This document shows, piece by piece, positions 23,205-48,288 of a stretch of 64,000 bases of DNA; position 1 is the stretch's first letter, and every line of letters begins with the position of its first letter. The notes beneath the pieces are model-generated. The model searched no databases, was not told the DNA's origin, and worked only from the letters and a program-made list of their open reading frames with translations. Source of the stretch: Candidatus Gastranaerophilales bacterium (lineage in GTDB: Bacteria; Cyanobacteriota; Vampirovibrionia; Gastranaerophilales; Gastranaerophilaceae); contig CALVBD010000001.1 in NCBI GenBank assembly GCA_944325635.1, positions 558,001-622,000 on the forward strand. The letters run 5' to 3'. A program made the position numbers and the translations under genes.

Positions 23205-23580
23205 TATTAACACTCCTTTAATAGTAAATTATAAGTTACAAAAAGTATTATACTCAAAACAAAAAAAAATAAAACCCGCCGGTATGCAACGACAGGTTCA
23301 AGTATATCAAACGTGAAAACCATTATAAAAAGTGTACATAGCTTTTATAGGGAATAAGCTCACCGTATTTTCAACCAAACCCGCTAAAGAAAAACTCTTA
23401 TCGCAACCCCGAAAAAGTGCCTGGATACAGTAAGCTTATATGATAATAATAACGCTTTTTTCTGCATTTTTCACCCTCCCGGAGAATAGAATTTAAAAAA
23501 TATACTAACTTAAAGTAATTAATTCTTAAGAGTTAGAAGAAAGAAAATTATATACGAGTTTACTTTAAATAGCTGTGACG

Positions 23581-23725
23581 TGTCACCCTGAACTCGTCTC
23601 AGGGTCTTATTACCAAGAGATGCTGCACTTCGTAAGGACAGGCTCACTCAAAATTTTTAAAGTCCTGAAACAAGTTCAGGATGAAAAAATTTTTGTTCGC
23701 TTTGTCAAACAAGTTCAGCATGACA
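23581..23725 (-). repeat. MITE-like dispersed element, copy 1
   Basis: Bounded by TGTCACCCTGAACT and AGTTCAGCATGACA. Its reverse complement matches the element at 26175-26371 along most of its length (the AGTAAGCCTGTCCTT and GGCATCTCTTA-type blocks and the CCTGAA...TTCAGG palindromes). No coding capacity. The wider gap from 23205 to the tRNA array otherwise shows nothing I can identify. Confidence 0.65.
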
Positions 23726-23837
23726 ATATTGAGTTAGTCTTGGCAAATTTGTATAGAATTTCCAGAAAAAACCTCTTGCAATAATTTTATTTTTATATTA
23801 AAGTAAATAGAGTTCAGGCGGGGGTGAGTAAAGACAT

Positions 23838-24256
23838 CGCCATAATTGAATAAATCCTTGCGGAAGTAGCTCAGTTGCCCAGTGGAGCCGGAGGCGTAAC
23901 GTAGTTAATAATTGGCTCTACCAACTGAGAAATAACCGCCACAATTGAATAAATCCTTGCGGAAGTAGCTCAGTTGCCCAGTGGAGCCGGAGGCGAAACA
24001 AAGTTAATAATTGGCTCTACCAACTGAGAAATAACCGCCCAAATTAAATAAATCCTTGCGGAAGTAGCTCAGTTGCCCAGTGGAGCCGGAGGCGTAACGT
24101 AGTTCATAAATTCGCTCTACCAACTGAGAAATAACCGCCAAAATTGAATAAATCCTTGCGGAAGTAGCTCAGTTGCCCAGTGGAGCCGGAGGCGAAACAA
24201 AGTTAATAATTGGCTCTACCAACTGAGAAATAACCGCCACAATTGAATAAATCCTT
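23838..24256 (+). repeat. Four tandem tRNA-5'-derived hairpin units upstream of tRNA-Gly
   Basis: Units begin at 23860, 23959, 24058 and 24158, and the true tRNA at 24257: a period of 99-100 bases in phase with the gene. Each unit holds the tRNA 5' end (GCGGAAGTAGCTCAGTTG), an insert starting CCCAGTGGAGCCGGAGGCG and ending AGTTAATAATTGG, then CTCTACCAACTGAG (reverse complement of the D-arm), then AAATAACCGC. They fold as GCGG/CCGC, CTCAGTTG/CAACTGAG and GTGGAGCC/GGCTCTAC. The ~20-base spacer (AATTGAATAAATCCTTG) matches the tRNA's own upstream sequence. Confidence 0.9.
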
Positions 24257-24329
24257 GCGGAAGTAGCTCAGTTGGTAGAGCTTCTGCCTTCCAAGCAGAA
24301 TGTCGCGAGTTCGAGTCTCGTCTTCCGCT
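24257..24329 (+). tRNA. tRNA-Gly (anticodon TCC)
   Basis: Complete cloverleaf: acceptor GCGGAAG/CTTCCGC, D-arm GCTC..GAGC, anticodon stem TCTGC/GCAGA with loop CTTCCAA (anticodon TCC), T-arm GCGAG/CTCGT with TTCGAGT, discriminator T; CCA is not encoded. It follows four tandem hairpin repeats built from its own 5' half. Confidence 0.95.
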
Positions 24330-24333
24330 AATT

Positions 24334-24363
24334 AAAAAGACCCATCTTCAGATGGGTCTTTTT
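24334..24363 (+). terminator. Terminator after tRNA-Gly
   Basis: 14-bp stem AAAAAGACCCATCT/AGATGGGTCTTTTT with a 2-nt centre, ending in T5. Confidence 0.85.
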
Positions 24364-24447
24364 AATTAGAAATGTAGGTCGGATTTACTAATCCGACAAA
24401 AAGTATAAAGTATTTTAAATATTCATTCACAAAAAATGTCTCATTAC

Positions 24448-24548
24448 CACCCTCGCCCCTTGCGGGATACAAAGGGAGCATACGAGGTAACGAGTCTTGC
24501 GACCCTGTATGCCTTGTGCTGAGGGTGCCCGAAGGGCGGGTGAGGGGT
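24448..24548. repeat. Imperfect inverted-repeat intergenic element
   Basis: CCACCCTCGCCCCTTGCGGG at the left is mirrored imperfectly by CCCGAAGGGCGGGTGAGGGG at the right; inside, GCATAC/GTATGC pair. GC content is well above the flanks. Between here and mscS a second palindrome lies at 24642-24661; otherwise the 24364-24813 gap shows no gene. Confidence 0.5.
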
Positions 24549-40058: not shown

Positions 40059-42314
40059 ATGAAATTGACAAAACGAACGAGACAAGGATTTTCAATGGTA
40101 GAATTGATGCTTCTGCTGTTATTCGTGTCATTGATAACGGCGGCACTCACTCCTGTTATCACCAGAAAACACTATAAAATGCCGCGTCCGGCAAATCATG
40201 GTGCGTATCTGTGTTATGATAGAGGCAACGGGCAGCTGCATGAAGTACGGTTTTCCGGAAAAGCTTTGACTACAACAGTCTTTGATCGTGATGTCACACA
40301 ATGTAAATTTGAGCCGCCTCAAAAAGTTTCATACTTCCATGTATCTGCTATCGGCGGCGGCGGCGGTGGCGGAGATTCAGGGTACACCGGCGGTGCGTTT
40401 ACCACATTAGGGCCATATACAGAACAATTAAGCCCGTTAAATATAACTGAATATATGGTGTCTGAAAGACAGCGAGATATAACAGCAAAAGACTTTGAGG
40501 ATTTTGGTGGTAAATTGTACGGCTTTGTAGTCGGTGCAGGCTCCGGCAAGGGAGGGGATCAATTATATGCAGTAAGGCACGATTCCTATCCTTGTACAAT
40601 TAACCACACTGAAACACACACGTATACTTATACAACAGTACATACATCAACAACATGTACAAGTTCTTCTACGCACACAGCTACTTCATGGCACAGCAGC
40701 GATTCTTCAAGTGGTTCTGACTCATGGCAAAGTGGTTCGGATTCAGATTCCGACTCAACTCCGCCATCCGGTTCTCACACGCCTGATCCTACTCCATCAC
40801 AACCGGATGCACCAGACCCAGGTCACCATGAAGTATCTTCAGGTAATCAAGGTTCTTGGGGTATATATCATGACAACGGTTCCTTTACAACTACCGGGGG
40901 GCAGTCAAATGTTCATCAGGGAGGTCTTGGAGGAGGTATTCCTGGATTTAATCCTGGTGGAAACACTTTTGGTGGCGAATCATATAATATAAAAGACAAA
41001 AAATTAAGATTAGATTTGCCAAAATTCAGATTCTTTAATCCGAATGGAGAATTTGCATTGCATAATCTTCGCTCTAAATATGCATTCCTGTTCTCTACAG
41101 ACAATTTGTTAGCATCTTCATACTCCACAACATACACATATACAACCTGTGATACTTGGGATACTGATGAGTGGACAACAACTCACAGTGATGTTAATGT
41201 CGAGACAATATGCGACGAACATAGAAACTATTATTCATATGGTACGGCAGCCTATGTAGGCGGAGCAGGAGCCGGTGGTGCGGTATGCCGCAGTACGATA
41301 AGAAATGGCGGTGTCGGATTAAACTACAATGTGGTTTCTATCCCTGCAACGGGGTCAGATGGCGCAAGCTGCTATCCGGGCTATAACTTGTCTTCTGAAT
41401 ATGACAGTCCACATTACGGCGCAACGGAATGTACAGGAAACTGTGCTCAAGACGGTAATACTGCAGGACAGACCTACAGTACAATAACTTTTGCCGGAGA
41501 AACTGTTAATGCAGAGAATTCACCAAAAGGCGGCACTGCAGCAACTTGTGCCGGTGATGGTTTCGCAGGTACTCCAGGAACAAGTTGCAGCCCGGCAAAA
41601 GTTACAGAAGGATGTTCTCCTGGACGTTACGGATACTGTCTCAAGAGATGGAATAGCTCCACCTGGGAAGCTAATACAACTTATGAATTTAAATTCACAT
41701 ACAGCCAGAACTACTTACAATACGGTTTACCTGGTGAACAAGGTGAATATAAAACCATGGTTATCAGATCCTTCAAAGAGGATAATATTCCTATCACTAT
41801 CGGACGCGGCGGTGCCAAAGGTGCTCCTGGCAAAGATGGCAGCGACGGTGAGACAACCATTTTCGGTAATATAATCTCTGCTAAAGGCGGCGAAGGCGGC
41901 GAAGGCGGTCAATTAACGGCACCGGAATGGCTTGAAGGCTATAGAACCGGAGCTGAATCATGGCCTGCCGGTGCGGTCAATGCAGATTATCAATTTGGAA
42001 AACGTCTTGTCCGTGAAGAAGGCGGCGTTGAGCCTGAAAAACCAAAACCGAATAACTTGTCTTCAAACATTTTGAACTTCCTTGCTCCGCAAGATAGTGA
42101 AAAAATTGCAAACATAATGGAAACTTATCGTATCGGTTACGGCGGCAAAGGCGGCGGTTCAAGACATAACTGCTGGTTCGGCGAATACAGAAAATGGCTC
42201 GACGGCGGTGAACTTGAACACAGTTACCCTACTCCTCCTGCAGCATGCAGCGGTAACTATGAGACCATTGATGCTGATGACGGTAAAAGCGGTGCTATTA
42301 TCATAAGATGGTAA
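40059..42314 (+). CDS. Glycine-rich prepilin-like protein 3 (large)
   Basis: 751 residues, the biggest of the three. Prepilin signature RQGFSMVELMLLLLFVSLIT; shared block NHGAYLCYDRGNGQLHEV; then SAIGGGGGGGDSGY. A Thr/Ser/His-rich stretch (about 183-260: THTYTYTTVHTSTTCTSS and DSSSGSDSWQSGSDSDSD) forms a stalk-like linker. Many cysteines and glycine repeats follow (GGGIPGFNPGGN, GRGGAKGAPGKDGSDGE, KGGEGGEGGQ), ending KSGAIIIRW. It is likely an extended surface-exposed adhesin displayed on a pilus. A strong terminator closes the operon. Confidence 0.82.
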   Translation: MKLTKRTRQGFSMVELMLLLLFVSLITAALTPVITRKHYKMPRPANHGAYLCYDRGNGQLHEVRFSGKALTTTVFDRDVTQCKFEPPQKVSYFHVSAIGGGGGGGDSGYTGGAFTTLGPYTEQLSPLNITEYMVSERQRDITAKDFEDFGGKLYGFVVGAGSGKGGDQLYAVRHDSYPCTINHTETHTYTYTTVHTSTTCTSSSTHTATSWHSSDSSSGSDSWQSGSDSDSDSTPPSGSHTPDPTPSQPDAPDPGHHEVSSGNQGSWGIYHDNGSFTTTGGQSNVHQGGLGGGIPGFNPGGNTFGGESYNIKDKKLRLDLPKFRFFNPNGEFALHNLRSKYAFLFSTDNLLASSYSTTYTYTTCDTWDTDEWTTTHSDVNVETICDEHRNYYSYGTAAYVGGAGAGGAVCRSTIRNGGVGLNYNVVSIPATGSDGASCYPGYNLSSEYDSPHYGATECTGNCAQDGNTAGQTYSTITFAGETVNAENSPKGGTAATCAGDGFAGTPGTSCSPAKVTEGCSPGRYGYCLKRWNSSTWEANTTYEFKFTYSQNYLQYGLPGEQGEYKTMVIRSFKEDNIPITIGRGGAKGAPGKDGSDGETTIFGNIISAKGGEGGEGGQLTAPEWLEGYRTGAESWPAGAVNADYQFGKRLVREEGGVEPEKPKPNNLSSNILNFLAPQDSEKIANIMETYRIGYGGKGGGSRHNCWFGEYRKWLDGGELEHSYPTPPAACSGNYETIDADDGKSGAIIIRW

Positions 42315-47781: not shown

Positions 47782-47920
47782 TTTATTCATTTTGCCATAA
47801 AAAGATATTTTTGGCAATTATATTACGGAAAATTGCAGACATTATATTGACTTTTGATATATTTTTTGTTAGATTTTATTGGAGGTAGGCTGAAATATTT
47901 GCCAGTCTACAGCATTTTTT

Positions 47921-48214
47921 GCTTATAGCTCAGTTGCCCAGCAGAGGTCTGGATGTAGCGCAAGTTAATAATAGGCTCTACCAACTGAGAATAACCCGTA
48001 AAACTTAATATTATTCTTGGGCTTATAGCTCAGTTGCCCAGCGGAGTCTGGACGTAGCGCAGTTAATAATAGGCTCTACCAACTGAGAATAACCCGTAAA
48101 ACTTAATATTATTCTTGGGCTTATAGCTCAGTTGCCCAGCGGAGTCTGGACGTAGCGCAGTTAATAATAGGCTCTACCAACTGAGAATAACCCGTAAAAC
48201 TTAATATTATTCTT
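47921..48214 (+). repeat. Three tandem tRNA-5'-derived hairpin units upstream of tRNA-Lys
   Basis: Units begin at 47921 (two bases short at its left), 48019 and 48117, then the tRNA at 48215: period 98. Each has GGGCTTATAGCTCAGTTG (tRNA 5' end), an insert CCCAGCGGAGTCTGGACG...AGTTAATAATAGG, then CTCTACCAACTGAG and AATAACCC. They close with GGG/CCC rather than GCGG/CCGC, matching this tRNA, while the insert is the same family as at the tRNA-Gly locus. A 20-base spacer (GTAAAACTTAATATTATTCT) separates units and the gene. Confidence 0.9.
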
Positions 48215-48287
<73 letters not shown>

Positions 48288-48288
48288 T

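Follow-up and report, generated by a model that had tools for sequence, protein, structure and literature searches.

Four tandem units lie directly 5' of an intact tRNA-Gly(TCC) gene (24257-24329, forward strand; called by ARAGORN and matched by Rfam RF00005 at 73 bits) in the window, by which we mean the whole 64-kb stretch of DNA analysed. The units start at 23860, 23959, 24058 and 24158 on the same strand and measure 99, 99, 100 and 99 bp (ending at 23958, 24057, 24157 and 24256), in agreement with the first-pass annotation, which had described a unit of about 99 bp repeated four times directly upstream of this tRNA. Each opens with the sequence found at the 5' end of the mature tRNA and consists, in order, of tRNA nucleotides (nt) 1-18 (hereafter T5), CCCA, an insert, GCTCTACCAACTGAG and AAATAACCGC. 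The element GCTCTACCAACTGAG, which we call the antisense or anti-D-arm, is the exact reverse complement of the whole tRNA-Gly D-arm CTCAGTTGGTAGAGC, its pairing partner, and occupies 23915-23929, 24014-24028, 24114-24128 and 24213-24227 in the four successive units; in unit 1, the T5 copy spans 23860-23877, the insert 23878-23914 and the spacer 23930-23958. RNA of this first unit is predicted to fold at -32 kcal/mol (z = -4.0).

Upstream of the array, the stretch 23820-23859 (forward strand) is, to judge from its sequence, the probable relic of an older unit: CGCCATAATTGAATAAATCCTT stands at its end, as in unit spacers, and the native leader at this place in genome G102 differs (upstream sequences of loci L008 vs L023). 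A search for inverted repeats finds a perfect one with a T-run 3' of tRNA-Gly (24328-24369, forward strand), which is not among the results of a consensus scan and which is likely to be the terminator of the array, so that array and tRNA-Gly would form a transcription unit of their own. Genes for an M24 peptidase and a SpoU methylase lie on one side of the array, and genes for a mechanosensitive channel and a SPOUT methyltransferase on the other. Sequences resembling dispersed repeats also flank it (23560-23740 and 24440-24545), with AAACAAGTTCAG.ATGA.AA.ATT occurring twice and CCCTCGCCCCTTGCGGG..CCCGAAGGGCGGGTGAGGG inverted.

A second array, absent from the first-pass annotation, comprises three forward-strand units (47919-48214) before an intact tRNA-Lys(CTT) (48214-48288, forward strand; tRNA call by ARAGORN, and Rfam). 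Its units lie at 47919-48018 (the distal one, with a partly decayed T5), 48019-48116 and 48117-48214, and their anti-D-arms at 47975-47989, 48073-48087 and 48171-48185. This array is bordered by a nucleotidyl transferase gene and by a gene whose product has no Pfam match, past which lies a gene of the EPSP-synthase family, and none of the eight neighbouring genes of the Gly and Lys arrays that were tested is a mobile-element gene. Promoter-like matches recur inside the Lys units, and we considered a promoter in each unit; with these matches, the transcription start would fall inside the tRNA. Elsewhere in the window, a perfect 9-bp repeat (AAGGCGGCG, 2.8 copies) lies within a reading frame at 41884-41908.

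A covariance model built from the seven units of these two arrays, and used for genome and family searches, detects further arrays in the same genome before tRNA-Val, Trp, Arg and Thr. The units are also present in related genomes, with matches to the model in 37 of 191 genomes and 14 of 41 genera of the Gastranaerophilaceae, so that the refutation named in the first-pass annotation, absence from all relatives, does not hold. We collected 80 non-redundant arrays with 133 units on 13 kinds of tRNA (43 single, 24 double, 11 triple, 1 quadruple and 1 quintuple), carried by Gastranaerophilaceae, Paludibacteraceae, Alphaproteobacteria and one metagenome-assembled genome (MAG) from a further phylum. 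Every array lies directly upstream of a tRNA and is co-directional with it, unless cut by a contig end, and no orphan copy away from a tRNA is found among them. The make-up given in the first-pass annotation (the first 18 tRNA nt, an insert and the reverse complement of the D-arm) consequently belongs to a phenomenon far wider than was then noted. Presence and absence are patchy, and since many relatives have the same tRNA without units, the units are dispensable.

Using a pattern that is independent of the insert, namely a D-arm and its complement (AGCTCAGTTG-N(24-54)-CTACCAACTGAG), we find only 35 matching stretches in some 85,000 species genomes (257 Gb), nearly all of them upstream of tRNAs and confined to few lineages: Gastranaerophilales, Paludibacter and related Bacteroidales, one Alphaproteobacterium and the unplaced MAG Co_bin.267. 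Reversed-pattern controls give close to zero matches, which, together with the rarity and tRNA-adjacency of the true ones, excludes a chance origin. Targeted searches add 10 positives among 200 Paludibacteraceae, and another Alphaproteobacterium in which a related unit accompanies the same tRNA-Thr. The remaining Cyanobacteriota sampled gave only three isolated matches, whose inserts are unrelated and which we judged to be due to chance. A tRNA-Gly with a clearly Gastranaerophilales-like unit occurs in a 1.6-Mb MAG labelled uncultured Acinetobacter (CAMZGT010000002.1), which looks mislabelled or contaminated. In a Spirochaetota contig (JAKQNL010000226.1), an inverted partial tRNA-Thr copy forms a long palindrome beside the gene; this is not the present element, and may be an assembly artefact or a terminator-like inverted duplication.

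Almost all carriers are MAGs. Outside the family, matches were found by exact antisense patterns, which would miss divergent antisenses and GC-rich D-arms. The possibility that the repeats are themselves an assembly artefact, raised in the first-pass annotation, is excluded by the recurrence of diverged versions in many MAGs, although exact copy numbers could be wrong and, given that array ends often coincide with contig ends, may be underestimates.

A general plan recurs across the 80 arrays and 133 units: T5, CC(CA), a hairpin, a linker, the anti-D-arm and a spacer, where T5 corresponds to tRNA nt 1-18 and the anti-D-arm, 15 nt long, is the reverse complement of nt 11-25 of the same tRNA. 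Units are around 70-145 bp long and contain no genes. In 111/133 units, divergence from the tRNA after T5 opens with the dinucleotide CC, at a point where the tRNA continues NTAG, and the sense arm is consequently unable to pair with the antisense CC that faces tRNA G18-G19. Among the Gastranaerophilaceae, the spacer carries the motif GAMAATTNAATA in 56 of 62 arrays when up to two mismatches are allowed, compared with 5.7 expected from shuffles; the same count in native leaders gives 17. Units of the Paludibacteraceae keep the plan with a shorter and unrelated insert (CCAGAGAATAGACA...), as do those of the Alphaproteobacteria with unrelated inserts. Given that the Paludibacteraceae inserts are unrelated, it is the plan, and not the insert, that recurs. 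The GCGG/CCGC outer stem of the long hairpin that the first-pass annotation had ascribed to the unit is a feature of this genus's Gly and Lys units and is not general, and the unit ends likewise form no conserved acceptor-like stem outside Gly and Lys units.

Two loci in the same genome depart from this plan. Five deviant units precede tRNA-Thr(CGT) (C2:10528-11000); their T5 ends after GCTC, and the complement of the anti-D-arm stands before it (GTAGAGCTTGCTCTAC), giving a perfect mini-hairpin. At tRNA-Ala(GGC) (C1:52000-53400), part of the tRNA-Ala 5' end (GGGGCGTTGGC) is copied 102 nt upstream, with a GC hairpin present and the anti-D-arm absent; this may be a distinct or degenerate version of the element.

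The antisense is specific to the tRNA that it precedes: it differs from its own D-arm by a mean mismatch of 4.2%, a value that rises to 15.0 +/- 0.7% on permutation of the D-arms across arrays. For non-canonical D-arms (Trp, Asp, Arg, Ala, Val-GAC and a Gly variant), the antisense is closer to its own tRNA in 29 of 32 arrays, and unusual D-arms are matched in Trp (GTTC..GAA), Asp (CTAACC), Arg (CTATCC), Gly (ACTC), Val-GAC (CTACCCCTGAG) and Ala (CTACCAGCTGAG). Moreover, the inner hairpin and outer stem covary, with 43 double-change cells compared with 13.7 +/- 3.1 in shuffled data (0/500 shuffles) and at most 12 in slid controls. As in cis-acting regulatory RNA leaders, a conserved, covarying structure is thus situated upstream of a gene. 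Changes in the antisense core comprise 18 A>G or C>T cells, which keep G-U pairing, no G>A or T>C and 5 transversions; these cells are partly non-independent (about 11 independent events), and two thirds of core sites are A or C, but the bias (p of order 0.01) is suggestive of pairing by the sense-strand RNA.

Constraint within the unit follows the same parts. In genus g1, divergence amounts to 0-3% in the antisense, 0-4% in T5 nt 8-18 and 0-4% in the tRNA, rising to 4-13% in the insert, 5-28% in the spacer and 26-45% in the flanks. In single-unit arrays, T5 differs from the tRNA at 0/258 positions in nt 11-16 and at 10/301 in nt 1-7, and T5 mismatch reaches 6.2% in distal units vs 1.4% in proximal ones. 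The view that the units are not the product of pseudogene decay, and that complementarity to the D-arm is their central feature, is supported by these data. However, the "decoy hairpin" of the first-pass annotation is too narrow a description, because the key partner of the reverse complement is the real tRNA D-arm (nt 11-25) and not only the 5' half of the unit.

Minimum free energy folds of the last unit together with its tRNA place the antisense on the real D-arm in all 80 arrays, and this fold lies on average 11 kcal/mol below that of unit hairpin plus native tRNA, a preference owed largely to the 15-nt length of the antisense. Such folds rest on nearest-neighbour energies, with tRNA tertiary contacts, modifications and kinetics outside the model. 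When the chain is folded as it grows, the antisense is predicted to leave its own hairpin for the nascent D-arm at around tRNA nt 24-30. In the predicted folds of 75/80 arrays, T5 nt 1-7 of the unit pair with the 3' acceptor strand of the tRNA, whose own 5' strand does so in 0/80. This take-over of the acceptor is topologically forced in a nested fold, yet it explains why the unit carries nt 1-18 and not the D-arm alone. It is weakly supported as a selected trait, since, where T5 nt 1-7 have decayed, as in some units, acceptor pairing is lost roughly as often as it is retained.

A pair of tRNA-Val loci in genus g1 documents the gain or loss of a unit. The locus in genome G173 (L197) has a unit and that in G076 (L198) has none; both share a leader with promoter-like TTGACA/TATAAT sequences up to tRNA nt 1, where they differ by exactly one T5-to-spacer unit. 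As filled and empty loci share the promoter-like sequence upstream, the units sit within the leader. The one-unit difference also gives T5 the form of an 18-bp target duplication, in the manner of a MITE-like target site, with tRNA nt 1-18 double in L197 and single in L198; the empty site would be regenerated by recombination between the two T5 copies. Inserts on the same tRNA within a genus share an identity of 0.81, compared with 0.64 for other tRNAs of the genus and 0.53-0.54 between genera, a gradient indicative of descent that is largely vertical, with some movement between tRNAs. The closest matches of some Lys inserts are Val inserts, and in the genus of the present genome the Lys, Val and Gly inserts resemble one another, which suggests spread between tRNAs.

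No known family accounts for the units: at the gathering cut-off, Rfam 15 reports only tRNAs in the window, and at E<=1 it has nothing within the units and one sub-threshold sRNA match that overlaps a tRNA. We found no paper that describes such units in a literature search of mainly open papers, in keeping with the earlier statement that no described class fits. Similarities to several known systems are nevertheless apparent. The tyrT repeats of E. coli (rtT RNA) are tandem, follow the tRNA, carry its 3' end and are co-transcribed with it. The present units resemble them in being tandem beside a tRNA gene, each with a terminal piece of the tRNA, but precede the tRNA, carry its 5' 18 nt, and have a D-arm antisense and a covarying hairpin. 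T-box riboswitches are likewise leader RNAs that pair with a tRNA and are capable of fold switching (here predicted); however, they stand before synthetase or amino-acid genes and read the anticodon and NCCA end, whereas here the leader is that of the tRNA gene itself, with the D-arm as its predicted pairing partner. We rejected a T-box on account of the position of the units before tRNA genes and the lack of a T-box match in Rfam.

As short, non-coding, imperfect palindromes with flanking direct repeats, the units also recall REP/RAYT palindromes and MITEs, but they are found only before tRNAs rather than dispersed, and their arms are target-specific. The GTAG/GGAG tag of RAYT-linked REPs is not conserved, varying with the tRNA (GTAG, ATAG, TTAG), and all copies are tRNA-adjacent. 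With regard to MITE-like dispersal, the units occupy 13 tRNA kinds and no non-tRNA site, and their sole inverted repeat is that formed by T5 with the antisense. Integrative elements at tRNA genes, including tycheposons, are kilobases long and carry an integrase; the units share with them the use of a tRNA gene that is left intact beside a partial copy, but are far smaller and devoid of genes. A hammerhead ribozyme is similar in a tandem GA next to a stem, but the CUGANGA core is absent, and an integron attC site was rejected for want of RYYYAAC/GTTRRRY boxes.

We tentatively propose, with a probability of roughly 0.45, that the unit is a bistable, self-antisense leader of the pre-tRNA through which the folding or maturation of the tRNA is gated. 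It would act as a structured RNA module within the transcribed 5' leader of the pre-tRNA. As long as the antisense stays paired with the 5' copy in its own unit (8 bp, interrupted where CC faces CC), the tRNA would fold and be processed; once the antisense lies on the real D-arm, the 5' half of the tRNA would be looped out, its native D-arm and elbow would be blocked, and the copied nt 1-7 could replace the tRNA 5' strand in the acceptor stem. The sense-arm CC would leave the antisense CC unpaired, to serve as toehold for the exposed tRNA G18-G19, and the array may thereby serve as a bistable gate or brake on tRNA folding, RNase P processing or dosage. Computation establishes the make-up of the unit, its position, tRNA specificity, covariation and constraint, its exact gain or loss and the predicted preference between folds; we infer that the unit is transcribed with the tRNA and that it switches, in response to a signal and with a benefit to the cell. 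A related possibility is that the units were cut from the leader, for example at T5 starts, and acted in trans, either on their own tRNAs or on foreign ones, as decoys or anti-tRNA RNAs. A discrete structured unit, tandem copies that would raise the dose, and a T5 that begins exactly at the mature tRNA 5' end would suit such a role, yet we consider it improbable: action in cis is favoured because the antisense fits the adjacent tRNA and units are found nowhere else, and the acceptor-like stem at the unit ends is restricted to Gly and Lys. Still less probable is a folding helper, whereby the leader would briefly hold the D-arm during transcription, let the 3' half fold first and then release it. 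The move of the antisense to the nascent D-arm in growing-chain folds accords with this, but the duplex is predicted to be the most stable state in the full transcript too, and relatives manage without units.

The alternative that we take most seriously, although we consider it unlikely, is a selfish, tRNA-targeting mini-element of about 60-110 bp (from CC to the spacer) that inserts between tRNA nt 18 and 19, duplicating nt 1-18 and leaving the tRNA intact, with the antisense as a guide or annealing arm for D-arms and tandems arising by re-insertion or slippage. The exact one-unit difference between filled and empty Val sites, with T5 as a direct repeat, the occurrence on 13 tRNA kinds, the higher identity of inserts on different tRNAs within a genus than between genera (0.64 vs 0.53), with some Lys nearest Val, and the patchy distribution all fit this explanation. 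However, exact patterns and one 199-bp query find no match in plasmid or phage records, two exact patterns find none in 2.9 million viral contigs, which led us to reject a phage- or plasmid-borne element, and no copy is found off a tRNA. Moreover, T5 and antisense stay near-identical while inserts diverge, their target specificity would require an additional, undescribed mechanism, and long retention suggests a benefit, given that exact loss by T5-T5 recombination should be easy. A selfish element consequently covers target duplication and patchiness, but explains retention and constraint less simply. The units may be an element living in D-arms or an RNase P substrate, both suggested in the first-pass annotation. 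The bistable leader and a selfish origin can both be true, in the form of a domesticated element. The least probable explanation, and one already disfavoured, is a functionless DNA by-product, in which template switching at the D-arm quasi-palindrome gave an inverted copy and slippage the tandems. Slippage is classically favoured by direct repeats and a near-palindrome, and distal units do show the greater decay; against this stand the covariation, a conservation gradient far above the flanks, the wobble-preserving changes of the sense strand, the recurring CC, the excess of GAMAATTNAATA over shuffles and the recurrence in unrelated lineages.

Control of tRNA genes is usually ascribed to promoters, processing and decay, and not to an RNA switch in the gene's own leader with the ability to undo the fold of the tRNA. 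If the units are bistable leaders, they would add a new layer of control over translation supply, in which antisense, D-arm and 5' copy are paired parts suited to compensatory mutation. With slightly less confidence than in the bistable leader itself, we suggest that they may form a new class of self-antisense tRNA genes with a strand-exchange switch, which arose in, or spread to, three or more bacterial phyla (Gastranaerophilaceae, Bacteroidales and Alphaproteobacteria, with one MAG of a further phylum). If they are instead selfish, they would represent a very small element, guided by RNA or homing on D-arms, that restores its target gene with each insertion. Either reading lies outside the described classes found here in Rfam and the mainly open literature, and tRNA-adjacent repeats in MAGs can evidently be genuine. 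In one to five copies before tRNA genes of some gut bacteria, the units look like an undescribed form of control, or of parasitism, of tRNA genes.
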